Under the pieces are notes generated by a model. The model was given only the letters and a program-made list of their open reading frames with translations, searched no databases and was not told the DNA's origin. A DNA stretch of 41,782 nucleotides, taken from assembly GCA_020859995.1 (NCBI GenBank), contig JAJBVE010000012.1, positions 1 through 41,782 of the forward strand, written 5' to 3'. Each line of letters begins with the position of its first letter. The first letter of the stretch is position 1. Made by a program: the position numbers and the translations under genes. Of the stretch, positions 1-14,769 are shown one piece after another. Origin of the DNA: Clostridiales bacterium (GTDB taxonomy: Bacteria > Bacillota > Clostridia > Lachnospirales > Lachnospiraceae).

Positions 1-54
1 TAGAGCACTTGACTTTTAATCAAGTTGTCCGGGGTTCGAATCCCCGATGTCTCA
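1..54 (+). tRNA. tRNA-Lys (UUU), 3' portion; 5' end outside window
   Basis: The window opens inside a tRNA. The anticodon stem CTTGA/TCAAG encloses the loop CTTTTAA (anticodon TTT, lysine). The T arm CGGGG-TTCGAAT-CCCCG and the acceptor 3' strand ATGTCTC with discriminator A follow. The 5' half lies upstream of the window. The last 46 bases are probably supplied by the integrated element, because the same sequence recurs at 12031-12077. Confidence 0.93.
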
Positions 55-55
55 T
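9..55 (+). repeat. attL: 47-bp direct repeat in tRNA-Lys 3' end
   Basis: This copy is identical to 12031-12077 and runs from the anticodon stem to one base past the discriminator. The flanks then diverge (TGCAA here, GAAGG at the right copy). It is the expected product of integrase crossing over within the tRNA anticodon or T arm. Confidence 0.93.
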
Positions 56-60
56 TGCAA

Positions 61-107
61 AAAGTCCCAAAAATCCTTTAAAATCAAGGGTTTTGGGGCT
101 TTTTTGT
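61..107 (+). terminator. Rho-independent terminator after tRNA-Lys
   Basis: An imperfect stem pairs AGTCCCAAAAATCC with GGGTTTTGGGGCT and is followed by six T residues. It lies just inside the element, so the element supplies both the tRNA 3' end and a terminator. Confidence 0.7.
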
Positions 108-158
108 TGTCTGGACATATTTCAAAGAATTGTCACAAATAGCCCTACTTTTTTGACG

Positions 159-191
159 GTAGGACACACGTAGCGCACACGTAGCCCACAC
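159..191 (+). repeat. Three tandem 11-bp boxes, left-end arm-type sites
   Basis: GTAGGACACAC (159-169), GTAGCGCACAC (170-180) and GTAGCCCACAC (181-191) abut without gaps. The same box occurs twice in tandem, same orientation, near the right end. The position about 100 bp inside attL and the helical 11-bp period suggest arm-type binding sites of the integrase. Confidence 0.7.
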
Positions 192-260
192 AAAAGCGGC
201 GTAAAGTGACCTGTCAATTTTCATCAAGTTTTGCAAATTATTAAATTTTTATAAACAAAT

Positions 261-313
261 ACCATTAAAGAAAAAACCGTACCTGGCTATGTCGATACGG
301 TTTCCTTAACGGT
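261..313 (+). repeat. TACGG-motif copy A with hairpin
   Basis: The motif TACGGTTTCCTTAACGGT (296-313) folds back on upstream sequence: AACCGTA pairs with TACGGTT, and ACCATTAA (261-268) pairs with TTAACGGT at seven of eight positions. Related copies lie at 992-1010, 7813-7832 and 10714-10733, all on the same strand and all between genes. Confidence 0.6.
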
Positions 314-597
314 GTTTCTTGCAGGTTCATGAGTGGTATAATGCGGATAAGATTCTTTTAAATGGTTTTCTGTTTTTTAGACTTGAAATTAAATGGTATG
401 ATGATATACTATTTACAAACGGCATATAGCAATGACAGATGTAATACAGCACAGAAGAGCATAGCACAAAACATAATAGTTTACATGGCAGGGTTTGGCG
501 CGGTCTGGTAAGGCAAGGCGTGGCAAGGCTTGGAAAATCCCTATGATTTCACTTGTAGAATTTCCAACAGAAAGAAAGAGGTAAACAATTATGTATA

Positions 598-849
598 GTG
601 AAAAAAACACTTAGAAAGAAAGCTTATGCAGTAGGAATACAGTTGAATAAGGGATTTTCTCATTACTTGTGCGGCGGCGCAGTTGTAGAATACGGCGGTG
701 AACGCATGACCGGGTATAATGCAGTAGATTTGTCAACCGGGTTAAGTATATGGGGAAGTTTTGATTATGTAAGAGACCATGTATGGCAGCTTGAAGATGT
801 TGAAGAATATCTTAAAGAAGTCTATGAGGATGCAGGCTTGAAATTCTAA
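598..849 (+). CDS. Small protein of unknown function (83 aa)
   Basis: I do not recognise a family. The protein has a basic N-terminus (MKKTLRKKAYAVGIQ), a Cys-Gly-Gly stretch near residue 24 and an acidic C-terminal third. The start is odd. The best ribosome binding site (AAAGAGGT, 576-583) serves an ATG at 591 that opens a seven-codon frame (MYSEKNT, stop at 612-614). The long frame opens with an overlapping GTG at 598, shifted by one base across a run of seven A residues (601-607). Loss of one A would fuse the ATG to the long frame. This may be translational coupling, slippage or a sequencing artefact. A good terminator follows at 918-956. Confidence 0.6.
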   Translation: MKKTLRKKAYAVGIQLNKGFSHYLCGGAVVEYGGERMTGYNAVDLSTGLSIWGSFDYVRDHVWQLEDVEEYLKEVYEDAGLKF

Positions 850-917
850 TGTTTATGCAAAGCCCGGAACAGGCTTCTAATATGTTTCCCGTCTGTCTAT
901 ATGAATAGCCGTGAATG

Positions 918-956
918 AGAACCGTAACGCACATAGGGGCGCAGCGGTTCTTTTTT
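918..956 (+). terminator. Rho-independent terminator
   Basis: AGAACCG (918-924) pairs with CGGTTCT (945-951) and runs directly into six T residues. It closes the transcription unit of the gene at 598-849. Confidence 0.8.
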
Positions 957-963
957 ATTGGAT

Positions 964-1017
964 AAGAAAAAACCGCATCGGATAATACGACACGGCTTTT
1001 CCTTAATGGTGTTTTAT
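964..1017 (+). repeat. TACGG-motif copy B
   Basis: ACGGCTTTTCCTTAATGGT (992-1010) is a diverged copy of the recurrent motif. Like copy A it is preceded by AAGAAAAAACCG and followed by GTTT, so copies A and B resemble each other over about 50 bp. It overlaps the 3' end of the XRE gene on the other strand. Confidence 0.55.
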
Positions 1018-1235
1018 TTATGGCTATCTTTATCCGAGATGTACTCCATGATATCCCCCGGCTGACAGTCGAGGACTTCACAGAGCCTTGCTATAGTTTT
1101 GCTATCAAGACCGCCCGTTCCGTTCTTTAATGCAGTGAGCGTTCCTTGTCCCATCAGCTTTTCTTTTCGGATTCTGTAGGTAGACCATCCTTTTTCACTC
1201 AACAGGTCAAATAATTTCTGGTAGCTTATCGGCAT
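1014..1235 (-). CDS. XRE-family (Cro/CI-like) transcriptional regulator, 73 aa
   Basis: This is a single helix-turn-helix domain protein of the short YozG-like type. Residues about 5-66 cover the five-helix fold. The recognition region is around GQGTLTALKNGTGGLDSKTIARL, split as GQGTLTALKNG and LDSKTIARLCEVL, and the family-typical ending CQPGDIMEY is present. It faces the gene at 1438 across 202 bp that carry three similar palindromes (1300-1389). These are very likely its own operators, so it probably represses itself and the divergent small-gene operon. It is separate from the integrase-linked repressor at 3920-4600. The domain call is secure; targets are inferred from position. Confidence 0.9.
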   Translation of the reverse strand: MPISYQKLFDLLSEKGWSTYRIRKEKLMGQGTLTALKNGTGGLDSKTIARLCEVLDCQPGDIMEYISDKDSHK

Positions 1236-1299
1236 AACGTCACTTCCATTCTGTAAGTTTTATTCATAATGGTTATCATAAACAAATATATCATATCAT

Positions 1300-1389
1300 A
1301 TGCACAAAATCAAGTGCATAACATTCCACAAAACAAGCACAAAACTTTGTGCATAAAATCAATAGACTATACACAAAATTAAGTGTATA
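1300..1389. promoter_or_regulatory. Three regularly spaced operators, divergent control region
   Basis: Three dyads share the core CACAAAA-N4-GTG. They are ATGCAC-N8-GTGCAT (1300-1319), GCACAAA-AC-TTTGTGC (1337-1352) and TATACAC-N8-GTGTATA (1368-1389). Their centres are 35 and 34 bp apart. A half-site CACAAAACAAG lies at 1327-1337. The layout recalls the three-operator switch of temperate phages. The natural ligand is the XRE protein encoded at 1014-1235. Confidence 0.75.
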
Positions 1390-1437
1390 TTATTTACTGT
1401 AACAAGCATATCTGATTCAAACAGAAAGGAGTTCACA

Positions 1438-1632
1438 ATGGGAAAAACAATCAGCTTACAGGTATACATTAGTGAAGAGGATGCAAAGAGATTCGATAAG
1501 ATTCTGCATTACCTGAACAGTTCTAACGAGGTAACAAGCGGAGATGTCCCGGCATGGGATGAAACATCTTTATACGGTGTACTGTTAAGCAATGGAATTG
1601 AACAGTTTAAGTTTAACCGTTCGGCAGGTTGA
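1438..1632 (+). CDS. Small protein of unknown function (64 aa)
   Basis: This is the first gene of the divergent operon controlled from 1300-1389. The start has a strong site (AAAGGAGTTCACA before ATG). The protein opens with a beta-strand-like segment (TISLQVYISEEDAKRFDKIL) followed by a helix, a pattern shared with small ribbon-helix-helix or CopG-like proteins. The similarity is too weak for a call. There is no signal peptide or membrane segment. It is followed after 21 bp by the gene at 1654. Confidence 0.65.
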   Translation: MGKTISLQVYISEEDAKRFDKILHYLNSSNEVTSGDVPAWDETSLYGVLLSNGIEQFKFNRSAG

Positions 1633-1653
1633 GAGCCGGGAGAAAGGGAAAGT

Positions 1654-1899
1654 ATGCAGGAGACTAAAAACCTGATTGACCATCACTTCAATTTATGGCT
1701 TGAAAGAATACATAAGCCGACCGAAAAGCAGAAATCTGCATATTCTGTTATTGAATCTATGCAGGAAGAAAAAAATACATTGCTTTATGAATATATCTCA
1801 GAAGTGCAGGAACAGGCATTTTATGGTGGTTTTGTAATGGCTATGCAGCTTGCAGCTGATTGTTACGCAGAACACAAAAAAATCGTTTTTAGGCAGTAA
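1654..1899 (+). CDS. Small helical protein of unknown function (81 aa)
   Basis: The start has a purine-rich site (GGGAGAAAGGGAAAGT). The protein is charged and almost wholly helical, with a C-terminal half (FYGGFVMAMQLAADC) whose spacing of small and aromatic residues resembles the DUF6809-type small proteins of Clostridia mobile elements. That resemblance is weak. It lies 21 bp after the gene at 1438 and probably shares its transcript. Two hairpins follow (1907-1974). Confidence 0.65.
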   Translation: MQETKNLIDHHFNLWLERIHKPTEKQKSAYSVIESMQEEKNTLLYEYISEVQEQAFYGGFVMAMQLAADCYAEHKKIVFRQ

Positions 1900-1906
1900 A
1901 GAAAAA

Positions 1907-1974
1907 GCCCTTGCAGAAGCTGCAACTTCCGCAGGGGCATAACCCGAGTAAAGGACACATCAAAGACCGGGTTA
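1907..1974 (+). other. Two tandem hairpins between small genes
   Basis: The first hairpin has two stacked stems: GCCCTTGC/GCAGGGGC (1907-1914 with 1931-1938) enclosing GAAG/CTTC (1916-1919 with 1926-1929). The second pairs TAACCCG (1940-1946) with CGGGTTA (1968-1974). Neither ends in a T run, so they may be an mRNA stability or processing element, or a small RNA, rather than a terminator. Confidence 0.5.
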
Positions 1975-2013
1975 GGTGGAATTATACCATATACCCGGCA
2001 GAAAGGAAAGGCA

Positions 2014-2232
2014 ATGGATAAACAGAACCGTTACCAGAAAAACGAGACTATGAGACTGTTAGGTTATCAGAGCGTGGAATCACCCGAGATCAGACCATTA
2101 CTGGAAGATCTGAGGGCGGCTTATCCTGATTCATTTAACCGCAATTATATGATGGTGCTGGATGCATTCCACCTTGGCGTTATTCTTGGCAAGCAGCAGG
2201 AACGCGCCAGAAGAAAGGCGGTGAGATCATGA
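2014..2232 (+). CDS. Small protein of unknown function (72 aa)
   Basis: The start is supported by GAAAGGAAAGGC eight bases upstream. The protein is helical, with a central aromatic stretch and a basic C-terminus (GKQQERARRKAVRS) that could bind nucleic acid. Its stop overlaps the start of the next gene by four bases (ATGA), so the two are translationally coupled. I recognise no family. Confidence 0.65.
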   Translation: MDKQNRYQKNETMRLLGYQSVESPEIRPLLEDLRAAYPDSFNRNYMMVLDAFHLGVILGKQQERARRKAVRS

Positions 2233-2420
2233 ATGAGAATGAAACTACCAAAATGGCTATAGAAATGGTTGAATCCTTAACGATAATGTCAGATGAAGAT
2301 TTTGTAGAAATGAAAGCGCAGATTATGGAAGATGCAGAGAGATTGCCTAGAGTAAAGGAATTCATGGAAATTGTATTTCGGACTGCTGAACGGCAGCGGA
2401 GAAAGGAGGAATCACTATAA
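2229..2420 (+). CDS. Small acidic protein of unknown function (63 aa)
   Basis: The ATG overlaps the stop of the preceding gene (ATGA), which argues for coupled translation. The protein is acidic, methionine-rich and helical throughout, ending in a basic segment (RTAERQRRKEESL). The acidic partner next to a basic one could form a small two-protein complex, but that is inference. A terminator follows at 2470-2507. Confidence 0.65.
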   Translation: MNENETTKMAIEMVESLTIMSDEDFVEMKAQIMEDAERLPRVKEFMEIVFRTAERQRRKEESL

Positions 2421-2469
2421 GATAATAAGCATCTTGTTTTAAAAAGAGGATTGTGGTAAATCTGAAAAT

Positions 2470-2507
2470 TCCAGTGCGGTTCTGGTAAAGCTGCACTGGA
2501 TTTTTTT
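2470..2507 (+). terminator. Rho-independent terminator
   Basis: TCCAGTGC (2470-2477) pairs perfectly with GCACTGGA (2493-2500) and is followed by seven T residues. It ends the operon that begins at 1438. Confidence 0.9.
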
Positions 2508-2531
2508 ATGTCGTGGGCTTGCAATAATTAG

Positions 2532-2828
2532 CTTGGTAGGAGAAATCTTTCGAACGAGCAGAAAACTTATCTGCTTGGGAAGAGATATGAAAGTGAGAAA
2601 ATGGCACACGGAGCATCAGACGGTTTTCGCGGAAACCAGAGCAAAACGGTAAAGGCTCAAAATGAGCCTTTACCAAAATCAAATAAAAAGAAAGACAGCG
2701 GAACCGCTCAGCGTCTTGCCAATGAATATGGTGTTGGACGTGAAACCGTTAAACGTGCTGAAAAGTTTTCAAAAGGTATTGACGTGATTGAGAAACAGGA
2801 ATCCGAACTGAAAGACACGATTCTTTAA
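2532..2828 (+). pseudogene. Remnant of a ParB-like DNA-binding protein
   Basis: An ATG at 2601 opens a 75-aa frame, but the frame reads on upstream to a stop at 2529-2531. The upstream part encodes RRNLSNEQKTYLLGKRYESE. It then continues through a Gly-rich linker into TAQRLANEYGVGRETVKRAE and KFSKGIDVI. Those two blocks, in that order, are typical of the middle of ParB-related plasmid and phage proteins: a linker, then the helix-turn-helix. The N-terminal ParB nuclease-like domain and everything after KDTIL are missing. I read it as an internal fragment, probably dead. A short helix-turn-helix peptide translated from 2601 remains possible. Confidence 0.6.
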
Positions 2829-2863
2829 AGAAAAATAATAGCCCGATCAACTAAGACCGGGCT
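2829..2863 (-). terminator. Terminator of the integrase unit (minus strand)
   Basis: On the minus strand AGCCCG pairs with CGGGCT (2840-2863) and is followed by a T-rich tract. It lies just past the integrase stop codon. Confidence 0.7.
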
Positions 2864-2870
2864 GCAATCA

Positions 2871-3923
2871 TTAAATCTGGTTAATAGCTGCAAGCATCGT
2901 TTCCCGTGTCAGATGCGTGTATACGTCTCTTGTAACGGTACTTCCTTTATGTCCTACTATCTTTTCAATGATTCTTTCGTCTACCCCGGCGGCGGTCAAG
3001 AGACTAACACAGGTGTGTCTTGTGTCGTGGGGCTTATGGTTCATGTTAAATTCCGTCATGATAGGATTCCAGTATTTGCGCAGGAAATTTGAATAGAGCA
3101 TCTTGCCACCCTTGCTTGTACTGATAAGATAAGGGCAATCATTAAGGTTGTACCAGTATTCGAAATACTTCAAGGTTTTGTCAGCTATCGGTACAATACG
3201 GACACCTGCATCTGTTTTTGATTTTTTAACGTCAATCCATTGTTCGCCTAAATGCACATCCTCTTTTTTGAGATCAAGCAATTCATCTATACGCACTCCC
3301 GAATAGATTAGCATTAAAAGCACGTTACAGTAAGGAACGTCCGTCCTGCTCCACAGCTTGTCAATTTCTTCTGCACTGAACGGCTGACGGTCAAGCGCGT
3401 TCGGGTTCAAGTCTTTATCAATCTCCACATACTGCACCTTGTTTCTGTCAGCCGGGACAATATCATGTTTCACAGCATAGTCGAACATTTGAGACAGCAG
3501 ACCTTTATAGCGTTTCTGGATGGGAGTATTTTTCCCGCATCCATCTAATACGGATTGCATAGCAGACAGATTAACGTCTATCATTTTCATATTAGCGAGT
3601 GGAGCGGCTACCCTGTACCCGGCGCGGTATCCATCCACAGAACCTTTAGACAGTTTCGGGAAAGATTCAGCAGACCATTTTTCGTATACTTCCGCAAAGG
3701 TGATTGTCCGGGCTTCAATGTCCCACGGTGCTTTATTAAATTCCGCAAGATAGATTTCAGCTTCTTTTCTGGATTCAAAGCAGCCGATAGTCTTTTTTGT
3801 CTGTACGGCTTTTCCTGTAACGGCGTTAGTAGTCCATCCTGTAGTGACTACTACACGCCAAGGTTTACGACGGCGGCGGTCGGATTGCTTATAGATTGAC
3901 CCGTAACCGTTAGGATTTTTCAT
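2871..3923 (-). CDS. int: Tyrosine recombinase (site-specific integrase), 350 aa
   Basis: It catalyses integration and excision at the tRNA-Lys attachment site. Residues 1-60 form the arm-binding domain typical of Tn916/lambda-type integrases, about 72-165 the core-binding SAM-like domain, and about 180-345 the catalytic domain. All catalytic residues are visible: Arg211 (SGVRIDELL), Lys236 (KSKTDAG), His299 and Arg302 (HDTRHT), His325 (VGHKGS) and nucleophile Tyr335 (RDVYTH). Length is normal. The ATG overlaps the stop of the repressor gene by four bases, so both are co-transcribed. Unusually, the gene is 2.8 kb from attL and 8.1 kb from attR. The N-terminal domain fits the tandem 11-bp arm boxes at both ends. 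Confidence 0.97.
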   Translation of the reverse strand: MKNPNGYGSIYKQSDRRRRKPWRVVVTTGWTTNAVTGKAVQTKKTIGCFESRKEAEIYLAEFNKAPWDIEARTITFAEVYEKWSAESFPKLSKGSVDGYRAGYRVAAPLANMKMIDVNLSAMQSVLDGCGKNTPIQKRYKGLLSQMFDYAVKHDIVPADRNKVQYVEIDKDLNPNALDRQPFSAEEIDKLWSRTDVPYCNVLLMLIYSGVRIDELLDLKKEDVHLGEQWIDVKKSKTDAGVRIVPIADKTLKYFEYWYNLNDCPYLISTSKGGKMLYSNFLRKYWNPIMTEFNMNHKPHDTRHTCVSLLTAAGVDERIIEKIVGHKGSTVTRDVYTHLTRETMLAAINQI

Positions 3924-4600
3924 GATTCATCCTCCGTTTCTTCTTTATTGCAGTGCGCTGTCAACAGTTCTGGTTCACTATCATCTTTAGGCGGATTCTT
4001 GCGAACTTCCTGCAATACTTTCTTAAATGATTCACTGGCAAGATAATCTTTGACGCTATTGTTATCTACCCCGGAAAGCTTCCTATAAATATTAGGTGTT
4101 TCCGTTTCGTGTTTTTCGTAGTAAATCATATCATCAATCATTCCGTATTTAGATATGGTTTGAATAAGAAATTTAAGCAGCGTATCGCAGTACGTATCTG
4201 GAGGAGCAGGAGCGGTCATAAGATGGTTTAATAGTCTTTTCCATTCTTTATTATAATTCTTTAAATTTTCTACTGCCTGCTCCGATAGTCCATAGACTCT
4301 TTCGGTTTTAGCATTGTCGTTTGTTATTATTCCTGTATAACCCATTAGGTAATCAACCGATACTTCTATTCCATATTTGCTTTCAAAATAACATCTGTAC
4401 GCTTGCATATGAAATAATGATAAGTCTTTATCTCCGCTTTCAAGATTGGAAATATCAGATTTTGTAAACCCTACTTCCTTAATAAATTGCGCTTGCGTCA
4501 AATGTGCAATCTCTTCACGGAGATAAACTAAGTTTTTAGTACGCTGTTTGAGATAATTTGAATGATAATACTTTTTCAAAGCATCCGAATTATACGTCAT
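3920..4600 (-). CDS. CI-like XRE transcriptional repressor, 226 aa
   Basis: Residues about 20-85 are an XRE helix-turn-helix domain (LTQAQFIKEVGFTKSDISNL carries the two core helices). The C-terminal 130 residues are helical and acidic and lack the LexA-type Ser/Lys protease, so the switch is probably not RecA-cleaved. It is co-transcribed with and overlaps the integrase. It faces the Cro-sized gene at 4808 across a 207-bp operator region with GATAACA dyads. By position it is the master repressor of the replication/excision genes at 4808-7682. In a satellite, such a repressor would be relieved by a helper protein, but that is inference. Confidence 0.88.
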   Translation of the reverse strand: MTYNSDALKKYYHSNYLKQRTKNLVYLREEIAHLTQAQFIKEVGFTKSDISNLESGDKDLSLFHMQAYRCYFESKYGIEVSVDYLMGYTGIITNDNAKTERVYGLSEQAVENLKNYNKEWKRLLNHLMTAPAPPDTYCDTLLKFLIQTISKYGMIDDMIYYEKHETETPNIYRKLSGVDNNSVKDYLASESFKKVLQEVRKNPPKDDSEPELLTAHCNKEETEDES

Positions 4601-4622
4601 ACAATTCCCCCTACCTATATAA

Positions 4623-4742
4623 ATTATTTGATAACAGTCAATAATAAATTATCAAATAATATAATTTATTGATAATTCTGTTGAATCTATTAATTAAACG
4701 TTTATAATGAGATTCGATAACAGAAACATTGTTGTTATCAAA
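4623..4742. promoter_or_regulatory. Repressor/Cro divergent operator region and rightward promoter
   Basis: Two large dyads share the half-site TTGATAACA. The first, ATTATTTGATAA (4623-4634) with TTATCAAATAAT (4649-4660), has perfect 12-bp arms. The second, GATAACA (4716-4722) with TGTTATC (4733-4739), has 7-bp arms. A rightward promoter TTGAAT (4681-4686), 16 bp, TATAAT (4703-4708) would start transcription at about 4715, inside the second dyad. Repressor bound there would shut off the genes at 4808-7682. Confidence 0.75.
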
Positions 4743-4807
4743 TATATACTACATCTTTCTGCAGAGGGTGTCAAGAACAATTTTCAGTAATTACGAGGAG
4801 GATTACC

Positions 4808-4999
4808 ATGTGTAACAAAGATATAAGGGATTATGCACGGATAAAAAATATCAGTTTGTGGAGAATAGCCGCAAAGATGGGTATGCGTGATAGTAATTTT
4901 TCGCGCAAATTAAGGTTCGAACTTCCCGAAACTGAAAAAGAGCAGATCAAAACAATCATTGACGAACTGGCAGCAGAGCAGGAGGGAGCGGAGACGTGA
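4808..4999 (+). CDS. Small Cro-like DNA-binding protein (63 aa)
   Basis: The start is set by GAGGAGGATTACC before ATG. Residues about 5-40 (RDYARIKNISLWRIAAKMGM) form a helix-turn-helix of the kind seen in small phage early proteins. The position, first gene rightward of the repressor operator, is that of Cro or an excisionase. It overlaps the next gene by four bases (GTGA). The fold is likely; the exact role is open. Confidence 0.75.
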   Translation: MCNKDIRDYARIKNISLWRIAAKMGMRDSNFSRKLRFELPETEKEQIKTIIDELAAEQEGAET

Positions 5000-5403
5000 C
5001 AGCAGAATTGAAGATACCCAAAAACATCAAGCCTATTCCGGGAACTATCACGGTCAAAGAAGCGGCGCAGGTGTTAGGCGTAGACCCACAGACGGTAAGA
5101 GTCTGGTTACAACAGGGGCTTGTGTCATGGGGGCAAGCGATAAAGGTTAAAGGCAGTACACAGTATACTTATGTGATTTATAAGATACCTTTCCAGAACC
5201 TTACAGGCTACCCGGATGCAATGGAAAGAGACGGCGTAGACAGCTTGGACAGGTTGCAGAATACGTTACAGAAAACGTATGAGATTGTAGACGAAGCGCG
5301 GACGGAACACGGAGATTTTGACGAGATTGGAAAAGCAGTACAGACCGGGCTTGACGAAGTAAGCGAACTTATCCGGGCATACCGCGCAGAGGTGACAAAA
5401 TGA
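4996..5403 (+). CDS. MerR/excisionase-type helix-turn-helix protein (135 aa)
   Basis: The GTG start overlaps the stop of the previous gene, with a GGAGGGAGCGGAGA site upstream. Residues about 17-45 (ITVKEAAQVLGVDPQTVRVW) are a clear winged-helix DNA-binding motif of the HTH_17/excisionase class. The rest is acidic and helical. It overlaps the primase gene by four bases. A place between the Cro-like gene and the replicase suggests a directionality factor or replication regulator. The domain call is strong; the role is inferred. Confidence 0.75.
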   Translation: MTAELKIPKNIKPIPGTITVKEAAQVLGVDPQTVRVWLQQGLVSWGQAIKVKGSTQYTYVIYKIPFQNLTGYPDAMERDGVDSLDRLQNTLQKTYEIVDEARTEHGDFDEIGKAVQTGLDEVSELIRAYRAEVTK

Positions 5404-7682
5404 CTTACGAAGAATTTTTACAACACTTCAAGATAAGCCGCAGGTACGGAGACAAGGCACAGTGTATTTGTCCTGCACATTCCGATAATAAAGCGTCTCT
5501 GACGATTACAAAAGGCAACAGGGGGACATTAATAAAGTGTCATGCCGGGTGTACGTGTGAAGAGGTGTTGACAGCAGTCGGGCTTGCAAAATCTGATTTA
5601 TTTTATGAGGATAGGCACTCACAGGACGAAGCGTGGAAACACTACGTAGAAAAACGTGAGGGAAGAAAAGTAGAAGAACGGTATGATTACGTTTTTATTA
5701 ACGGTGATGGTTATGCTTTTACGAAACTCCGTCTAGACAACAAAGATATGAAAATGGGAATGATGCGAGACGGAAAATTTAAATATAGCTTACGCGAGTA
5801 CGGCGGAAGAAAGGCATTTAATGCACTGTATATACCACAAGGGCTTAAAGCTATAAGCAAGGCAATTACGAACGGCGAGATGATATTTTTGCCCGAAGGT
5901 GAAAAGGATGTAAACACACTTACATCTAACGGTTACATATCACTTACATACGGGAGTGAAGGGGATTGGCAGAAAAATTATGCCGAGATTTTCAGGGATG
6001 CACGAGTCGTTATTCTGGCGGACAATGACCCACCGGGCGCGAGAGTGGCGGCAAGGGCATCAAAGGACATCGGCATAATAGCAAAATCTGTAAAAATTAT
6101 TACCCCTATGCCCGATTTACCACATGGTGATGTATCAGACTATTTTGCGGCAGGACACACGAAAGAAGAATTTGAGCAGCTTGTCAGCCGGGAGACGGAG
6201 CAGGAAAGACCGTTACAGGAAACCGTATCAGCTACAGCCGGGAGTGAATCTCTTGTGCGGAAGTTAGAGCAGCTGGACGCTTGCAATAATTACCCGGCTA
6301 ACGATATGGGGACATCAAGACTATTTGCCGAGGTATTCAAGGATGAATGCCGATATAGTCCGACCGTCAAAGACTGGATGCATTATGACGGCATCATGTG
6401 GCAGCGTGATTATGAAGGAATGGCGGCGCGTGGATGCTGTAAGCAATTGGCAGATGCTTTTTTGAAATATGCTGTAAGCTGCAATCTGGACGGAGAGCGC
6501 AGAACCGCATATTTAAAGTATGCTGTCAGCTTAACATCATATAGAGTCCGTAACACGATAGTAAATGACAGCCGGGAAATAAACCGCTTTACTTCCGAGC
6601 AGATGGACGCAGACGATTATTTGCTTAACTGTCTTAACGGTACGCTTGTTTTGAGCGAAGTTAAGCCATTATTCCGGGAACACAGACCAGATGATTTGAT
6701 ATCTAAGGTGAGCGGCACGAACTATGACCCGGCGGCAAAATATCAGTTATGGGAAAAGACCTTAGACGAAATATTTGAGGGAGATACAGGGAAGATAGAT
6801 TACCTGCAAAAGCTGTTGGGATATTGTCTTACAGGCTGCACCAAAGAGGAACAGATGTATTTTCTTTATGGGGCATCGACTAGAAACGGGAAAAGCACAA
6901 TAACAGAGACATCAAATTATATTTTAGGTGATTACGCAGCTACCATATCACCAGAAACGTTAGCTGTGAAGCAGAACAAAGATTCACGGACAGCTTCACC
7001 CGATATAGCCAAACTGGCAGGAGCGCGGCTTGTGATTGCGTCAGAGCCGCAGAAAAGGATGCTATTTGATTCTGCACTTGTAAAGGCGCTGACAGGGCGA
7101 GATCGAATAACGGCAAGACATTTGTATGAAAATGAATTTTCGTTCATTCCAAAATTCAAGTTGATTTTGAACACAAATTATTTGCCGACCATCACAGACC
7201 CGACAATTTTTAAATCAGGCAGAATAAAGGTTCTTTCATTCAATAGGCATTTTGCCGAGTCGGAGCAGGACTTAACGTTAAAGGAAAAATTACGTAGTGA
7301 AGCATCGGGCATTTTGAACTGGATGATTGAGGGCTATTACAAGTATAAAACAGATGGTTTGAAGCCGCCCGAATCAGTGACCAGAGACACCGAAGAATAT
7401 CAGCATGACTCAGATAAGCTACAGAAATTCATAGACGAATGCCTGATTGAAAGTAAAGGTAACTGTAAAGCCGGGGATGCTTATAAAACTTATGCCGAAT
7501 GGTGCAGATCAAACGGTCAAGGAATTGAAAGCAAAGGTAATTTCTTTTCAGACTTAAAGACCAAAGGAATTTTCAAGGATACCGGGACGGTAAACGGCGC
7601 AACAGTGAAAAATGTTATTGCCGGATATGTGATTGATATATTCACGGAGATTCAACCAGATGAAATGTTACCTTTTGCATAA
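5400..7682 (+). CDS. Primase-helicase (CHC2-like zinc finger, TOPRIM, D5/SF3 helicase), 760 aa
   Basis: This is the likely replication initiator of the element. Residues 18-60 form a primase-type zinc finger (Cys22, Cys24, His27, Cys47, Cys51). About 160-255 is a TOPRIM fold with its glutamate in LPEGEKD and acidic pair in ILADNDPPG. About 300-470 is the D5 N-terminal region. About 485-640 is an SF3 helicase with Walker A GASTRNGKST near 489-498 and sensor asparagine in ILNTNYLP near 588. The C-terminal residues form a winged-helix-like tail. The architecture resembles P4 alpha and the Pri-Rep proteins of phage satellites. The gene overlaps its upstream neighbour by four bases and is followed by a long inverted repeat that could be its origin. 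Confidence 0.95.
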   Translation: MTYEEFLQHFKISRRYGDKAQCICPAHSDNKASLTITKGNRGTLIKCHAGCTCEEVLTAVGLAKSDLFYEDRHSQDEAWKHYVEKREGRKVEERYDYVFINGDGYAFTKLRLDNKDMKMGMMRDGKFKYSLREYGGRKAFNALYIPQGLKAISKAITNGEMIFLPEGEKDVNTLTSNGYISLTYGSEGDWQKNYAEIFRDARVVILADNDPPGARVAARASKDIGIIAKSVKIITPMPDLPHGDVSDYFAAGHTKEEFEQLVSRETEQERPLQETVSATAGSESLVRKLEQLDACNNYPANDMGTSRLFAEVFKDECRYSPTVKDWMHYDGIMWQRDYEGMAARGCCKQLADAFLKYAVSCNLDGERRTAYLKYAVSLTSYRVRNTIVNDSREINRFTSEQMDADDYLLNCLNGTLVLSEVKPLFREHRPDDLISKVSGTNYDPAAKYQLWEKTLDEIFEGDTGKIDYLQKLLGYCLTGCTKEEQMYFLYGASTRNGKSTITETSNYILGDYAATISPETLAVKQNKDSRTASPDIAKLAGARLVIASEPQKRMLFDSALVKALTGRDRITARHLYENEFSFIPKFKLILNTNYLPTITDPTIFKSGRIKVLSFNRHFAESEQDLTLKEKLRSEASGILNWMIEGYYKYKTDGLKPPESVTRDTEEYQHDSDKLQKFIDECLIESKGNCKAGDAYKTYAEWCRSNGQGIESKGNFFSDLKTKGIFKDTGTVNGATVKNVIAGYVIDIFTEIQPDEMLPFA

Positions 7683-7690
7683 TAAGTAAC

Positions 7691-7772
7691 TGTGCAAAAT
7701 GTGCAAATCTCATGTAAAGTTTTGAAAAATTGTTCTATAGGGACTTTACATAAAAAATGCATATTTTGCACA
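7691..7772. repeat. 29-bp inverted repeat, candidate replication origin
   Basis: The left arm 7691-7719 and right arm 7744-7772 are inverted copies. TGTGCAAAATGTGCA matches the complement of TGCATATTTTGCACA at 14 of 15 positions, and ATGTAAAG/CTTTACAT is perfect. A 24-base AT-rich loop separates them. The left arm also contains a 10-bp direct repeat (GTGCAAAA). Iterons with AT-rich DNA directly after a primase-helicase gene are the layout of satellite origins such as those of SaPIs. Confidence 0.6.
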
Positions 7773-7812
7773 AAACTCAGAACAAGCAATTGCAAACTAA
7801 AATAAAACACGA

Positions 7813-7832
7813 TACGGTTTTCCCTTAACGGG
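7813..7832 (+). repeat. TACGG-motif copy C
   Basis: TACGGTTTTCCCTTAACGGG lies 22 bp upstream of the start codon at 7855. It matches copy D at 19 of 20 positions. Confidence 0.6.
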
Positions 7833-7854
7833 ATTTTAGGAAGGATGGTTAATT

Positions 7855-8043
7855 ATGTCAGAAACGAGAAACGAAGCTTGTGAACTTACAGAAAAAAGGA
7901 TTGCGGATTTTCATGAACACCGCACCTGTTTGGGTTCGGCAACCAGCAAGGAAATCTATCAGGCGGCGCAGATGGATATGCTTATTGAACAACTTAGCCT
8001 TATAGCGCAGGAGTTGCACTACCTGACGAGCAGGTTGAGTTAA
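7855..8043 (+). CDS. Small protein of unknown function (62 aa)
   Basis: The start is supported by AGGAAGGATGGTTAATT. The protein is helical, with a leucine-rich C-terminal half (MLIEQLSLIAQELHYLTSRL) that could form a coiled coil. I recognise no family. It opens the rightward operon that continues with the HNH nuclease 13 bp later, and TACGG-motif copy C sits in its leader. Confidence 0.6.
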   Translation: MSETRNEACELTEKRIADFHEHRTCLGSATSKEIYQAAQMDMLIEQLSLIAQELHYLTSRLS

Positions 8044-8056
8044 TGGAGGTGATAGC

Positions 8057-8323
8057 ATGAGATTACATAGCCGTAAATATGAGGAGTATATTCATTCGTG
8101 GAAATGGCAGCAGACAGCGGAATTAAGACGCAAAATTGACCATTACCAGTGTGCAGCTTGTGGCAGACCGCAAACAGACAAATGCAGGTTGCAGGTGCAT
8201 CATATTACTTATGACAGGATAGGGCATGAGGATATTGAGCATGATTTAGTTACACTTTGCCCGGAATGTCATAAAAAAATTCACAAGATTTTGAAACCGT
8301 ACAAATACGCAGATAGGGGGTGA
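8057..8323 (+). CDS. HNH endonuclease (88 aa)
   Basis: The start is set by GGAGGTGATAGC before ATG. The protein is a minimal HNH nuclease. A CxxC zinc knuckle (CAAC) sits at residues about 33-36. The catalytic segment LQVHHITYDRIGHEDIEHD follows at about 51-69, and LCPECHKKIH completes the beta-beta-alpha metal fold at about 73-82. Small HNH proteins often lie beside terminase genes in phages and satellites and assist DNA packaging or cleavage. Here the next gene is a possible small-terminase-like protein. The nuclease call is secure; the packaging link is inferred. Confidence 0.92.
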   Translation: MRLHSRKYEEYIHSWKWQQTAELRRKIDHYQCAACGRPQTDKCRLQVHHITYDRIGHEDIEHDLVTLCPECHKKIHKILKPYKYADRG

Positions 8324-8332
8324 GGTAAAGCA

Positions 8333-8971
8333 ATGGCGAATACAATTAAAACCGCATCGGGCGCGGAGGTATATGAGCATGGCATCATGGTGTATTTAGA
8401 CCAGTACATAGCCGAAAAAGGTATTGAGGATATGTCAAAGGAAACGCAGTCTAAGTGGAATGCTTGCCTGATGTATATTTACAATAATCTGTTTAAGGCA
8501 GATGATACTTGTGTGAAATACAATAACAAAAACGCCTGTATTGATTATTCCGATTACGAAACTATTGATAGAATCTGCAATATTTATATCAATCTCTGTT
8601 TCGAGTATGACAAAGAAATTTCTGTTATGGGCTTCTCGCTTATGACCGGAATTTCAAGGGATACAATCTATAGTTGGGGGAACGGTGAGTATAGGCTTAA
8701 TTCTTCACACTCCGACGTTTATAAAAAATTGCACGATTTTAACGAAGAATCACTAAGTAATATGCTTGTTTCTGGCAAGAAAAATCCTGTCGGTATCCTT
8801 GGCTGCTTGAATCGGCGGCACGGATGGAATATGCCGGGAGCTGCTAAGGCAGAAGAACCGAAGCGTACACAGTCAATAGATGATATTGCGCGGCGGTATG
8901 GTATCACAGACACTACAAGCAACGCAGATGCAGATACAGAGCCGTTAGAGCCACCTGTAGCAGATTTTTGA
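8333..8971 (+). CDS. DNA-binding protein, possible terminase small subunit (212 aa)
   Basis: The start has GGGGGTGAGGTAAAGCA nearby. Residues about 100-125 (VMGFSLMTGISRDTIYSWGN) are a helix-turn-helix. It is followed by a helical segment ending in GILGCLNRRHGWN, the pattern seen in small terminase or packaging-initiator proteins of Firmicutes phages (recognition helix, then a 'short-chain replacement' and reading LLKAKYGW-like end). The last 50 residues look disordered and acidic. It sits nine bases after the HNH gene. In phage satellites a private small terminase redirects helper packaging. That would fit, but the assignment rests on pattern and context only. Confidence 0.55.
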   Translation: MANTIKTASGAEVYEHGIMVYLDQYIAEKGIEDMSKETQSKWNACLMYIYNNLFKADDTCVKYNNKNACIDYSDYETIDRICNIYINLCFEYDKEISVMGFSLMTGISRDTIYSWGNGEYRLNSSHSDVYKKLHDFNEESLSNMLVSGKKNPVGILGCLNRRHGWNMPGAAKAEEPKRTQSIDDIARRYGITDTTSNADADTEPLEPPVADF

Positions 8972-8981
8972 GGGTGAGCAA

Positions 8982-9197
8982 ATGGCTAAGAAGAAAATGA
9001 CCCCGGAGCAGATACGAGCGCGCCGCGATGAGTTGAAGATATTGTTTGATGTAAACGATCACGACGATGATAAAGTGCTTGATATTATCAGTGATGAGAA
9101 CGGCGAGTTTGAAGAGTCTGATTACTGGATTTTGCGGCTGATTCTGGCAGATTACCAGATCAATTATCGTTCTCCGCCGCAAGACGGTAACTATTAA
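8982..9197 (+). CDS. Small acidic protein of unknown function (71 aa)
   Basis: The start has GAGGGTGAGCAA directly upstream. It follows the previous gene by ten bases, so it belongs to the same operon. The N-terminus is basic (MAKKKMTPEQIRARRDELK), the middle very acidic (FDVNDHDDDKVLDIISDENG), and the C-terminus aromatic. No membrane segment or known motif is seen. Confidence 0.65.
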   Translation: MAKKKMTPEQIRARRDELKILFDVNDHDDDKVLDIISDENGEFEESDYWILRLILADYQINYRSPPQDGNY

Positions 9198-9250
9198 TTT
9201 TACATAGATGCAACTATTAATTTTTCAGAGAAGAAAGGTAGGTAACTAAT

Positions 9251-9559
9251 ATGTTTGATCAGTATAATCCGTATCGGATTCAGCCGGGAGAAAGCGATTG
9301 GCTCAAAGGACAGCGTGAGTTAGCGAGACGCGAAAACGAAAGGGCAGAAACCAAAAGGCGGATGAAAAATCTGCTCGAAAAAGCTGGGGGCAATGACAAG
9401 ACAGTACGCAATAATTATCTTCTGACACCGGACGAACAGTCAGCACTCACCGAAGCAAAACAGAAGTGGGACGAAGAACAGAAGATGGGCGAGGATTTTG
9501 TCAAAGCGTTTACGTATGCAACAGCGCAAAACGGTTACGCACTCCCCCCTAAAGATTGA
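9251..9559 (+). CDS. Small charged protein of unknown function (102 aa)
   Basis: The start follows AGAAAGGTAGGTAACTAAT. The protein is highly charged and mostly helical. Residues about 18-50 (LKGQRELARRENERAETKRR and following) are a likely coiled coil. I recognise no family. It lies in the same direction as the HNH and possible terminase genes, 53 bp downstream of the previous gene, and a 9-bp perfect hairpin follows. Confidence 0.65.
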   Translation: MFDQYNPYRIQPGESDWLKGQRELARRENERAETKRRMKNLLEKAGGNDKTVRNNYLLTPDEQSALTEAKQKWDEEQKMGEDFVKAFTYATAQNGYALPPKD

Positions 9560-9571
9560 TTAACCCGGACA

Positions 9572-9613
9572 TCCTGCTCCCACCTGGCATTTTCTGGATG
9601 AAGTGGAGCAGGA
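9572..9613 (+). other. Hairpin after the 9251-9559 gene
   Basis: TCCTGCTCC (9572-9580) pairs perfectly with GGAGCAGGA (9605-9613). No T run follows, so it may stabilise the message or be a weak terminator. Confidence 0.5.
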
Positions 9614-9739
9614 CGCCAGAAACAACGGTACACAGGGCGCGAAACGGTCAAAATTCAATTTAAAAGCTTTAAAGGTAGACTTGTTAAGGTGTGATTCTCA
9701 AATGCGATTTTGGGCGAGATTTTACGGAGGTTTATTAGT

Positions 9740-10300
9740 ATGAGTGCATCAGCAGCAGATAAGATGATATTTGATTTAATAAAGAGTAGAGAACCGTTAC
9801 AGAAACCGTATCTGTCATTAAGAAAGCTTCTGGAGGTGAAAGAACTTCCAGACGGCTATCTATCAATAGCAGCAGACCGATTTTCTGATGCAGAATTGAT
9901 TGACGGTGAATCAGTAATTATTGATTTTACTGATTTCCCGAATCTGTTTTTGACTTCTGACGGTTTGTTAGACAGCAGACACATCTTAGCAAGCTATATC
10001 TCCCAGAAAGAATTGACGGAGTTATATAAAATGGTATGCAGCCGGGAACGTGAAGTCATGCTATTCAATTCCATGACGGCTATGTTACGTGAAATGACGG
10101 TGAAAGACCTGTTGAAGTATTCCAGACAGGCGAAACCAGAACAGAGAAGATTCTATCTATATGAATTGCGTCAACGTTTGCCATGGACACAGGCAGCGCA
10201 CAAGGTGAGATCAGCGGCGCACCTGTTCCACACCCGAATTAAGTATCATGGTACATTATCGCTGCTTAAGTCAGCTGCAGAATCGTTACAGGAAGAATAA
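9740..10300 (+). CDS. Protein of unknown function (186 aa)
   Basis: The frame can be opened at a TTG at 9710, but ACGGAGG (9724-9730) lies nine bases before the ATG at 9740, so I prefer that start. The protein is helical and soluble. Its C-terminal third is basic (LLKYSRQAKPEQRRFYLYEL, then RQRLPWTQAAHKVRSAAH), which suggests nucleic-acid binding. I recognise no family. A 640-bp gene-free stretch follows. Confidence 0.7.
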   Translation: MSASAADKMIFDLIKSREPLQKPYLSLRKLLEVKELPDGYLSIAADRFSDAELIDGESVIIDFTDFPNLFLTSDGLLDSRHILASYISQKELTELYKMVCSREREVMLFNSMTAMLREMTVKDLLKYSRQAKPEQRRFYLYELRQRLPWTQAAHKVRSAAHLFHTRIKYHGTLSLLKSAAESLQEE

Positions 10301-10309
10301 CCAGATAAT

Positions 10310-10377
10310 AAGGCGGTATCCGCTCCAAACTGTCAAAATATCAGACGGAAAAGAGCAAAACCGCCTTGTATTTTGAC
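10310..10377 (+). ncRNA. Interleaved repeats able to form an H-type pseudoknot
   Basis: AAGGCGGT (10310-10317) pairs with ACCGCCTT (10360-10367), and GTCAAAATA (10332-10340) pairs with TATTTTGAC (10369-10377). The order a-b-a'-b' with 8 and 9 perfect pairs is that of a pseudoknot. Whether it is transcribed is unknown; it lies just after the gene ending at 10300. Confidence 0.4.
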
Positions 10378-10713
10378 CGTAAACGAACGCAAAGCAGATA
10401 AGCCGAGGGATTTACCATCAAAAGGTTGAAATGGCTGTACGGGGCAAATAGAATGCTTTAGGGCTATTTTGTCTAATTGGTATTATCTACAATGCAATAA
10501 TTAAAAGAATCAATGATACCAGAATAACAGATGCACTACGCACACGCGCGTGAGGAATAACTGCAGGACAAATTACGGCACTAAATTCTGCTGCATCCAT
10601 CGGACAAGATCACGCCGGGAAATGGAAGTGCAGGAAGTGACCGCAGATGATTTATTAGAGATTGGAGCAGGTGAGATTGTGACGGATTGCTTTATAGTAT
10701 GGCAGTCGGTCAA

Positions 10714-10733
10714 TACGGTTTTCCCTTAACGGT
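10714..10733 (+). repeat. TACGG-motif copy D
   Basis: TACGGTTTTCCCTTAACGGT is the fourth copy of the recurrent motif, on the same strand as the others. It lies about 120 bp before the recombinase promoter. Confidence 0.6.
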
Positions 10734-10805
10734 TATTTATAACTATGATTCTACAGGAAAGGAGGGTGCAACAGTCGGAGTCTTAAATTGATACAGGCAG
10801 ATTTT

Positions 10806-10908
10806 AAAAGTATCAATTTAAACGTTGTTAAAAATAGTATCAAAAAATCCCTTGACAATGGCTGATATTTGAGTATAATTAAAGTATCAAATAAAACGTT
10901 CGTTTAAA
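10806..10908 (+). promoter_or_regulatory. Recombinase promoter flanked by repeated boxes
   Basis: TTGACA (10852-10857), 16 bp, TATAAT (10874-10879) is a near-consensus sigma-A promoter. AAAGTATCAATTTAAACGTT (10807-10826) and AAAGTATCAAATAAAACGTT (10881-10900) are direct repeats on either side. A third AGTATCAAA lies at 10836-10844, and TTTAAACG is inverted as CGTTTAAA at 10901-10908. These are probably operators, perhaps bound by the recombinase itself. Confidence 0.75.
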
Positions 10909-10944
10909 TAAATACAAAACAGAAATTGAAAGGGGAAAGATACC

Positions 10945-11652
10945 ATGACAAAGATTTACGGCTATTGCAGAATTTCAACGATGAAACAGAAAATCGAAAG
11001 ACAGATTGAGAACATCAAGAGACTTTACCCGGACGCTGTGATTATTAGTGAAGCGTATACAGGCACATCATTAGACCGCCCGAAGTTTACGAAATTGATT
11101 GAACAGGTGAAACGTGATAGGGCAAAGGGAACGAATGTTACACTGGTGTTTGATGAGGTTTCCAGAATGTCAAGGAATGCAGAAGAAGGCTTCAAAACCT
11201 ACAAGATGCTTTATGATTTAGGCGTTGAATTGGTTTTCATCAAAGAGCCACACATCAACACATCCTGCTATAGAGATGCTTTAAACTCAAAAGTGAGTAT
11301 GACAGGCGGTGATGTGGATATCATTTTACAGGCGGTCAATGAATATCTGATGAAGTTAGCGGAAAGACAGATTGAAATTGCATTTCAGACGGCGCAAGCA
11401 GAGGTTGACTTCCTGCATCAGAGAACTTCCGAGGGTGTACGGAAAGCGCAAGCGGCAGGTAAACAGGTAGGACGCGCGCCAGGTGCTACAGTGACCACAA
11501 AGAAAGGAATTGCAGTCAAAGAGATTATCAAGAAACATTCTAAGAATTTTGACGGTAGTCTTAATGATATTGATACTATGAAACTGGCAGGAGTCGCAAG
11601 GAATACATATTACAAATACAAGAGTGAACTGAAAGCTGAAATGGGCGCATGA
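10945..11652 (+). CDS. Serine recombinase, resolvase/invertase family (235 aa)
   Basis: The start follows GAAAGGGGAAAGATACC. The catalytic domain spans residues 1-150, with nucleophile Ser11 (YCRIS) and the conserved FDEVSRMSRN block (Asp70, Arg74, Arg77). A long helix follows (about 115-150), and a C-terminal helix-turn-helix (about 185-230, ending in GVARNTYYKYKSEL) would bind DNA. It is a small resolvase-type enzyme, not a large serine integrase. It sits at the far end of the element from the tyrosine integrase under its own promoter. It could resolve multimers, invert a segment or regulate the element; no clear res site outside its promoter was found. Confidence 0.93.
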   Translation: MTKIYGYCRISTMKQKIERQIENIKRLYPDAVIISEAYTGTSLDRPKFTKLIEQVKRDRAKGTNVTLVFDEVSRMSRNAEEGFKTYKMLYDLGVELVFIKEPHINTSCYRDALNSKVSMTGGDVDIILQAVNEYLMKLAERQIEIAFQTAQAEVDFLHQRTSEGVRKAQAAGKQVGRAPGATVTTKKGIAVKEIIKKHSKNFDGSLNDIDTMKLAGVARNTYYKYKSELKAEMGA

Positions 11653-12030
11653 GACGCTTGAAATGGATGTAAGGAAAGATTGCTTGCCTCTCTTTTTTTA
11701 TTGTCTGTTTGCGCTTCTGGATGCTTCACTGACACGTTACAGGAACAGGCGAACACAAGCTTATATATCATCATGCAGGTGCAGGACAAGCCCGGCAGCA
11801 TGACCGGGGGCATCCCTTTACAGGAAAGCACCCCGGCGGCACACTTAACCCCGGAAGTAGCGCGAAAATGAAAAAAGCCCTTTCTTGAACGTCTCAAATT
11901 TAAAAAAAAACAAAAAGGCAGTCATTATTTTGTAGTGTAGAATTGATACAGATTGAAATTTGTAGGACACAGGTAGCCCACACAAGGACGCAGAAATGCC
12001 GTAATTACGGGCTTTTCTGAATTCTGCAAA
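11653..12030. other. Gene-free right end of the element
   Basis: This stretch holds the two right-end 11-bp arm boxes and little else. A TTG-initiated frame at 11680-11871 begins with a lipoprotein-like sequence (LASLFLLSVCASGCF), but it lacks a ribosome binding site, a basic N-terminus and a sensible tail. I do not count it as a gene. Confidence 0.55.
11962..11983 (+). repeat. Two tandem 11-bp boxes, right-end arm-type sites
   Basis: GTAGGACACAG (11962-11972) and GTAGCCCACAC (11973-11983) repeat the left-end boxes in the same orientation. They lie about 47 bp inside attR. Confidence 0.7.
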
Positions 12031-12077
12031 TTGACTTTTAATCAAGTTGTCCGGGGTTCGAATCCCCGATGTCTCAT
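12031..12077 (+). repeat. attR: 47-bp direct repeat of tRNA-Lys 3' end
   Basis: This copy is identical to 9-55. It lacks the 5' half of the tRNA, so it is the leftover of the original gene's 3' end. Confidence 0.93.
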
Positions 12078-14394: not shown

Positions 14395-14769
14395 TATAAA
14401 ATCTCTTTCGCTTTTGGATAGAATATTAATTTAATTTTATTAGCCTGGATGAATGGATATTGTTATGAAAAACTGTCCTTGTATAATTATATAAAAGTAT
14501 AATTGCTCTCATAAAGATAACAGAGATTACGTAAAAATGCAATAGAATGAAACAAAATCAGATTTAAGAAATGGATTTGTCGGCTTTGACGCACCTTATG
14601 ACATAGCTTGCACGGATATCTGTCTGCGCTGAATGGTCCTGCGAGCCGGTTTATGAAAAATGATGCATTCTTTGAAAGTATATAGTATAATGTTACCTGA
14701 AGAAATTTCTGGCGCTTGTACCGGAATAATTCGAGTGTCAGCGAGCAGTTGGGGTTGCTGCGAGTAATA

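Follow-up and report, generated by a model that had tools for sequence, protein, structure and literature searches.

Phage satellites shape phage defence and gene flow, and those named in the literature examined, which was covered in part, come from staphylococci, lactic acid bacteria, Proteobacteria, marine bacteria and Streptomyces. P4-like satellites possess a primase-helicase of the P4/D5 type. Gram-positive phage-inducible chromosomal islands (PICIs) are described, in the part of the account drawn on here (PMC6092414), as elements of about 12–15 kb without phage structural or lysis genes, having divergent regulators, an integrase gene (int) beside the repressor, an excisionase gene (xis), a fused pri-rep, an origin 3′ of rep and sometimes a small terminase gene (terS); the origin, directly 3′ of rep, consists of two iteron sets flanking AT-rich DNA. 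Further marks of such islands are att sites that prophages are not known to use, genes exclusive to PICIs, and induction, packaging and interference that depend on a helper. According to the portions consulted of two further papers, capsid-forming PICIs (cfPICIs) make capsids (PMC11389934) and phage-inducible chromosomal minimalist islands (PICMIs) have been described from Vibrionaceae (PMC10803314). The locus considered here, positions 9–12077 of a 41,782-nucleotide stretch (the window) from a Lachnospiraceae genome (assembly GCA_020859995.1, contig JAJBVE010000012.1), appears to be a PICI-like phage satellite, a reading to which we give a probability of roughly 0.83.

The element is a discrete mobile unit of about 12 kb in a tRNA-Lys gene, flanked by perfect 47-bp direct repeats at 9–55 (attL, the 3′ part of the tRNA gene) and 12031–12077 (attR); coordinates here and below refer to the plus strand unless stated. 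The window starts at the first base of contig C4 of the source genome, and the tRNA match over bases 1–54 (Rfam RF00005, 43 bits) is incomplete at its 5′ end because the contig begins there. ARAGORN found no whole tRNA at the window start, the anticodon, TTT (Lys), was taken from the sequence itself, and a search of the same genome for the left-flank contig did not find it. Two congeners have the site unoccupied, which identifies 9–12077 as an insertion: in G027 (C351) and G752 (C68) a complete tRNA-Lys is followed by a short diverged stretch of about 40–120 bp and then by the right flank of the window, at 89% identity over 1284 nt and 80% over 1221 nt, respectively. The sequence GTAGNNCACA occurs five times in the window, at 159, 170, 181, 11962 and 11973, and nowhere else in it on either strand; the copies form two arrays with an 11-bp period, viz. 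three repeats at 159–191 (GTAGNNCACAC) and two at 11962–11982, as expected of integrase arm sites, which they putatively represent. An earlier reading of this DNA from its letters (the sequence-only reading) had proposed a satellite-like element in tRNA-Lys, and the direct repeats, the empty sites and the end-confined arm repeats bear this out. Among 47 genomes of the genus, with six candidates scored per genome and contigs often broken, paired tRNA-Lys repeats on a single contig were seen only in the source genome and in G001, where a different insertion of 11 kb (C119, 6108–17203; L113) occupies the same tRNA-Lys gene with an integrase, an AAA_25 helicase and further genes. Virion genes were thus not found at this locus in relatives, the site being empty in G027 and G752 and filled in G001 by this other, partly scanned insertion, of which three proteins gave an AAA_25 helicase, an integrase and a weak tape-measure score.

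Genes for the integrase and a helix-turn-helix (HTH) repressor lie on the minus strand, and divergently from them run those for a Cro-like regulator, an HTH/excisionase-like protein and a fused primase-helicase (Pri-Rep), followed by a candidate origin, a small gene, genes for an HNH endonuclease and a TerS-like protein, genes of unknown function and a serine resolvase, the last of which was missing from the gene list of the sequence-only reading. The integrase, immunity switch, primase-helicase and HNH of that reading are all confirmed by family scores (PF00589, phrog_8 with phrog_17740, TIGR01613 and PF01844). The tyrosine integrase (2871–3923, minus strand) scores 6.8e-20 to PF00589 and 1.4e-57 to phrog_1; the repressor (3920–4600, minus strand), in the Rpr/Stl position, scores 5.4e-8 to phrog_8; and the Cro-like regulator (4808–4999; phrog_17740, 4.2e-12) has homologs in the same place in loci L251, L254 and L258 (50–55%) and L252 (35%). 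The gene at 4996–5403, in the xis position, matches phrog_6058 (3.5e-15), a family of unknown function, and scores to MerR_1 (1e-4), to TIGR01764 (1.1e-4, below cut-off) and weakly to a phage small-terminase family (phrog_57, 0.0028); these weak HTH/excisionase scores make it a candidate for the xis role.

Scans of 20 proteins with Pfam and PHROGs and of 10 with NCBIfam recognised neither a virion, lysis or relaxase family in the element nor any large terminase (TerL), portal, capsid, tail or capsid-remodelling gene, and 15 virion proteins compared by tblastn with this element and seven other satellite-like elements gave no match at E ≤ 0.01. The HNH protein has a weak terminase-like PHROG score (5.4e-6), which runs through its HNH part. 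The claim that structural, lysis and conjugation genes are missing therefore stands, in the sense that these scans and the tblastn comparison recognised none.

This gene order recurs elsewhere in the family. A Pri-Rep profile search of 397 genomes of the family matched 13, the source included, at E ≤ 1e-100, and all 12 others were inspected. In four of the 12 (G640, G683, G536 and G602, in other genera of the family) HNH and TerS follow in the same order, and three of these have a resolvase as well: G640 and G683 have int, cro, the HTH gene, Pri-Rep, HNH, TerS and resolvase, an 8.1-kb contig of G536 has cro–HTH–PriRep–HNH–TerS–res, and G602 has cro, Pri-Rep, HNH and TerS with a different integrase. 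These cousins are 44–51% identical to the element in Pri-Rep, 41–48% in HNH and 43–59% in resolvase, and they hold proteins scoring to PF16677, the gp3-type TerS family, in the same slot. The G683 element, inserted at the end of a protein gene rather than in a tRNA gene, has 42-bp att-like repeats (95% identical, 4400–4441 and 14573–14614), with four copies of the arm motif inside its left end and one copy and one variant inside its right end. The elements of G640 and G017 have no clear att repeats, G602 shows a 20-nt match at a lysS-like end as an att candidate, and IMG/VR lists the G640 contig among its virus contigs. Within the genus (47 genomes), three further TerS-bearing elements have TerS, an integrase and regulators and no recognised large terminase: that of G017 lies on a 111-kb contig and has a D5-type primase, that of G752 has a resolvase and reaches the contig end, and that of G015, in which HNH and TerS adjoin, is split between two contigs and shares cargo DNA with this element (69–77% in pieces). 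The two G015 contigs are read as one element, since activase and tgt, the genes that flank it, are adjacent in four of the six genomes fetched (not in G001 and G000).

This recurrence bears on the possibility that the locus is a decayed prophage which lost its virion genes and kept an early region and TerS. The phage-like integrase, regulators and TerS would suit such an origin, and g7 (2601–2828, 75 aa, with a weak score and possibly a truncated HTH gene) and the sparse stretch at 10300–10945 could be remnants; the core reading frames are open, however, and the same virion-less order stands in other genera, with att-like and arm-like repeats in G683, so that independent decay to the same set is improbable and we consider this origin very unlikely. 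Of 66 loci in viral contigs with integrase relatives, none has the gene order of the element; the 23 with more than one element-like protein mostly hold an integrase and an HTH gene, a few having a weak primase or cro match.

The replication module consists of Pri-Rep (5400–7682, 760 aa, D5/P4 type; phrog_6088, 7.3e-131; TIGR01613, 6e-67) and, directly after its stop codon, a candidate origin (7683–7799) with two inverted iteron sets around an AT-rich core. The inverted repeat at 7691–7772 pairs 25 of 30 positions; the best of 30 shuffles reached 20, and among 30 sampled stretches of the element a score of 25 was found only for that containing the repeat, the runner-up scoring 19. Inverted iteron pairs around an AT-rich core also follow Pri-Rep in L251, L252, L253, L254 and L255; in L254 the left iterons are altered and the right ones altered to match, and at this place L258 instead has another pair of repeats, separated by 152 bp. 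The candidate origin of the sequence-only reading is upheld by the repeat, the shuffle and sampling controls and this recurrence, and as a candidate it fits the organisation given for PICI origins in the part of PMC6092414 drawn on. Among the best 119 of 1655 Pri-Rep homologs and the best 119 of 200 TerS homologs (own protein excluded), the longest contig measured 8–13.5 kb for 44 of the former and nine of the latter and was longer for 29 and 53, respectively, a hint in favour of a satellite that comes from best hits and compares genes of different length. For a 77% Pri-Rep homolog and an 84% homolog of g18 alike, the longest contig listed measures 12,302 bases, about the size of the element, and we infer that they share one contig. 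Single-protein scans of viral contigs with Pri-Rep and g18 found neither.

The serine resolvase (10945–11652; PF00239, 1.8e-21; homologs of 43–59% in L251, L254 and L258) is preceded by AGTATCAA repeats (10783–10915) around a 12/12 sigma-70-like promoter match (10852–10879), a candidate res site or operator of the resolvase; the repeats number three in the window, three in L254 and two in L258 and are absent in L251. A resolvase at the 3′ end could also serve plasmid multimers, and P4-type primases do occur on plasmids (369 records, the best-ranked 39% identical and none covering 80% of the query), as one would expect if the locus were an integrative mobilizable element or an integrated plasmid moved by conjugation. 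Against this, no relaxase family was recognised with Pfam (20 proteins) or NCBIfam (10 proteins), so that the plasmid mobilisation genes named in the sequence-only reading as a refuting result did not appear, and the TerS, which has no known role in conjugation, found no match in the plasmid collection, making such an element most unlikely. Decayed prophage, mobilizable element and integrated plasmid were accordingly rejected on the recurrent order, the lack of a recognised relaxase and the TerS.

The HNH endonuclease gene (8057–8323; PF01844, 6.5e-8; homologs of 41–48% in L075, L251, L252, L254 and L258) directly precedes the TerS candidate (8333–8971, 212 aa, gp3-type; PF16677, 1.6e-4), which the sequence-only reading had called a possible small terminase. 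Its identity as TerS is suggested by a profile match and by its phage kin upstream of TerL. An hhalign comparison with seven PF16677-scoring proteins gave 97.3% (E 1.8e-11), and the search for homologs found 200, of which the 120 listed are mostly 50–60% identical and include one named 'DNA-packaging protein'. TerL lies downstream of the homolog in 23 of 36 loci (a set that excludes the earlier kin loci L005 and L006), and in 21 of the 26 that keep at least 6 kb, and a portal gene is present in 12 of the 36. When ten proteins of five such loci were scanned against PHROGs, TerL and portal were named in L014, L015 and L012 and a head protein in L014; some loci with TerS kin, and protein record P0123, are labelled Lachnospiraceae.

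A satellite could also package through a cos or pac site, the product of 8333–8971 then being a DNA-binding regulator and not TerS. The weak Pfam score leans that way, as does the distance to TerL, since in 22 of the 23 TerL-bearing loci the homolog lies 3–8.4 kb before TerL and does not adjoin it. In L012, on the other hand, it stands 313 bp before TerL, the profile match is to gp3-type TerS, and the cousins keep PF16677-scoring proteins in the same slot; a regulator is therefore unlikely, and the product is treated below as TerS.

A search for gp3-type TerS (PF16677) in the 47 genus genomes found 11 places in eight genomes: this element, three satellite-like places (G015, G017 and G752), four phage-like places, one in G758 alongside a primase and a tape measure gene, and two (G017 C14 and G035 C49) judged spurious by context. 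Two of the phage-like places have TerL by homology (G016 C16 and G000 C12), and in the other two (G033 C24 and G000 C9) a large adjoining gene is taken as TerL by position.

Trees of selected proteins (19 TerS and 14 primase rows) point to a separate history for terS. Deep joins in the TerS tree have very long branches, and the clades relied on are that of this TerS with nine phage TerS (99/97), apart from seven other satellite TerS, and that of this Pri-Rep with those of G602, G536 and G061 (98/99), the last an element of another order. With this TerS as query, the elements of G640, G602, G536 and G683 gave no match at E ≤ 1e-4. Since this TerS belongs to a tailed-phage lineage and not to that of the cousins, such a phage was probably the source of terS, which would have replaced another in a conserved slot behind HNH, the two TerS groups being separated by very long branches; the tailed-phage group sharing this TerS is the predicted helper type.

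A dispersed motif, ACGG-N-TT-N1-8-TAACGG, has 18 copies in the 55 kb that this element and its four cousins make up together, six of them in this element (7813–7832 and near 297, 3805, 6210, 9794 and 10715), and is absent from 14 other elements and from 194 kb of flanks, with two copies in 2.16 Mb of other loci; the pattern was derived from copies first seen in these same elements, and sub-loci of the same places were omitted. In the window, L252 and L254 the origin is followed by one copy, and the Pri-Rep gene contains another at nearly the same offset (796–811) in the window, L251 and L252. By eye, those within the integrase and Pri-Rep/g18 genes fall in different frames, so that protein conservation does not explain them. 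Within the sequence searched the dispersed motif is confined to this lineage. The repeats at 7813 and 10714 had been considered as a cassette boundary, an idea dropped because the motif is dispersed on both strands, and in viral contigs the pattern proved too loose, with at least 120 stretches found and one match in each of those listed.

Taken together, these features allow a more specific picture, tentative and in our judgement a little short of even odds: an undescribed PICI-like lineage spanning several genera, in which terS would be an exchangeable cassette behind a conserved HNH, here swapped in from another phage group with a change of helper, and in which the dispersed motif, kept by several members inside the primase gene and where origin and late operon meet, would be a site of replication, regulation or packaging. 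If this is true, the exchanged terS amounts to a natural experiment in helper switching by satellites. Satellite–helper parasitism would become directly testable in one more bacterial family, given a satellite lineage that extends over several of its genera and a TerS indicative of the helper group.

In the proposed cycle, a helper phage would relieve the repressor, the integrase and the HTH protein would excise the element, copying by Pri-Rep would start in the region after 7682, multimers would be separated by the resolvase, and the TerS together with the large terminase of the helper would direct element DNA into helper capsids. At least three phage-like contigs of the host (C57, C225 and C12) carry a large terminase recognised by homology, and its contig C9 has TerS and a likely TerL by position.

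Several observations weigh against a PICI-like satellite of this kind. The TerL family accompanying this TerS (one query, from L015) was not found in the host, so that a resident helper is not indicated, and with one query the family was matched in only one of the 47 genus genomes, G016. The TerS scores 22.3 bits to PF16677, below the curated cut-off of 29.4, as do the TerS of three of the four cousins, one passing; it had no match in a sequence search of PDB, and its structure model is poor (predicted local distance difference test, pLDDT, 56.8). The primase tree places G640 just outside the Pri-Rep group and G683 elsewhere, so that Pri-Rep has been shuffled as well. The architecture of the element was not seen in virome records with resolvase or TerS homologs, whose source may be PMC8361208 or PMC8844717, and these records were not counted as evidence of packaging. 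HNH homologs occur in 59 phage records, and a Pri-Rep relative stands beside capsid-gene fragments on L381, so that neither gene is exclusive to satellites. L381, an IMG/VR contig of 23.3 kb in which the Pri-Rep relative follows those fragments, may belong to a phage or to a capsid-forming satellite.

Between att and the integrase lie small cargo genes with an XRE-type regulator of their own (1014–1235, minus strand; PF13443, 1.7e-12), and operator-like repeats (1299–1389, without strand) stand between this regulator and the cargo, in agreement with the earlier claim of cargo at 598–2420 under a separate regulator. Gene g1 (598–849, 83 aa) has no Pfam family and a weak score (0.0016) to a PHROG of unknown function, and g3–g6 (1438–2420; 64, 81, 72 and 63 aa) are open reading frames, g5 and g6 being 50% and 55% like genes of the G015 element. 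The product of g4 (1654–1899) has a 47% homolog at G000:C57:385–642, at one end of a prophage contig resident in the host; prophages and satellites may exchange cargo. A PADLOC scan of nine small proteins together with the resolvase yielded a single weak score. To the right, g16, g17 and g18 (8982–10300; g18 from the ATG at 9740) are open reading frames of unknown function; g18 has two homologs besides itself by protein search, another beside a related primase on L382 (32%), and a structure model with a pLDDT of 54.7. The gap between g17 and g18 (9642–9689) matches L116:8819–8866 (G001:C25), beside the integrase of another element, at 83% identity over 48 nt, and outside the element five tandem-like repeat copies with a 28–29-bp period lie at 37449–37597.

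Further elements were met in the searches. In G364, C2 holds an 18-kb island (about 783,734–802,068; L386, L069) with an integrase, a D5-type primase and a 1305-aa tape-measure-like gene, in which no capsid or large-terminase gene was noticed, no family scan of it having been run; a near-identical 1305-aa-type gene lies beside a primase in L384, and L218 (G758) has a primase, TerS and tape measure, so that these three are possible satellites carrying their own tail gene. In L252, L253 and L256 (G602, G570 and G643, different genera) primase-bearing elements with similar integrases stand, by eye, beside lysS-/greA-like genes, perhaps a shared insertion hot spot.

With P4-like satellites the element shares a P4/D5-type primase-helicase, and it differs from them in its TerS, its Gram-positive PICI order and the lack of a recognised P4-type activator. 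It resembles PICMIs and cfPICIs, as far as the parts of their descriptions consulted go, in being small and, as inferred here, dependent on phage particles, a likeness by description and not by gene content; unlike cfPICIs, it has no recognised capsid gene. No description of a satellite from this bacterial group was found in the literature examined, whose coverage was partial and did not extend to genome-wide satellite surveys, and the suggestion of a new family holds in that the lineage was not found described, though not in its layout, which is already that of a Gram-positive PICI. The structure is well supported, the function is deduced from it, and what sets the lineage apart would be its HNH–terS module, its resolvase and a DNA motif of its own. 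Set against the portion of the Gram-positive PICI description available, the differences are a terS directly preceded by HNH, a 3′-terminal serine resolvase, cargo placed between att and int, the lineage-confined dispersed motif and the lack of a recognised capsid-remodelling gene. The PICI/SaPI-like reading (SaPI, Staphylococcus aureus pathogenicity island) agrees closely with that same description: as in those islands, the regulators are divergent, int lies left of the repressor in the same direction, the xis position and pri-rep lie to the right, an origin-like region follows rep on its 3′ side with terS downstream, and about 12 kb hold no recognised virion or lysis genes. The element is thus laid out like a Gram-positive PICI and yet, in part, stands apart as a member of a lineage for which the literature covered gave no description.

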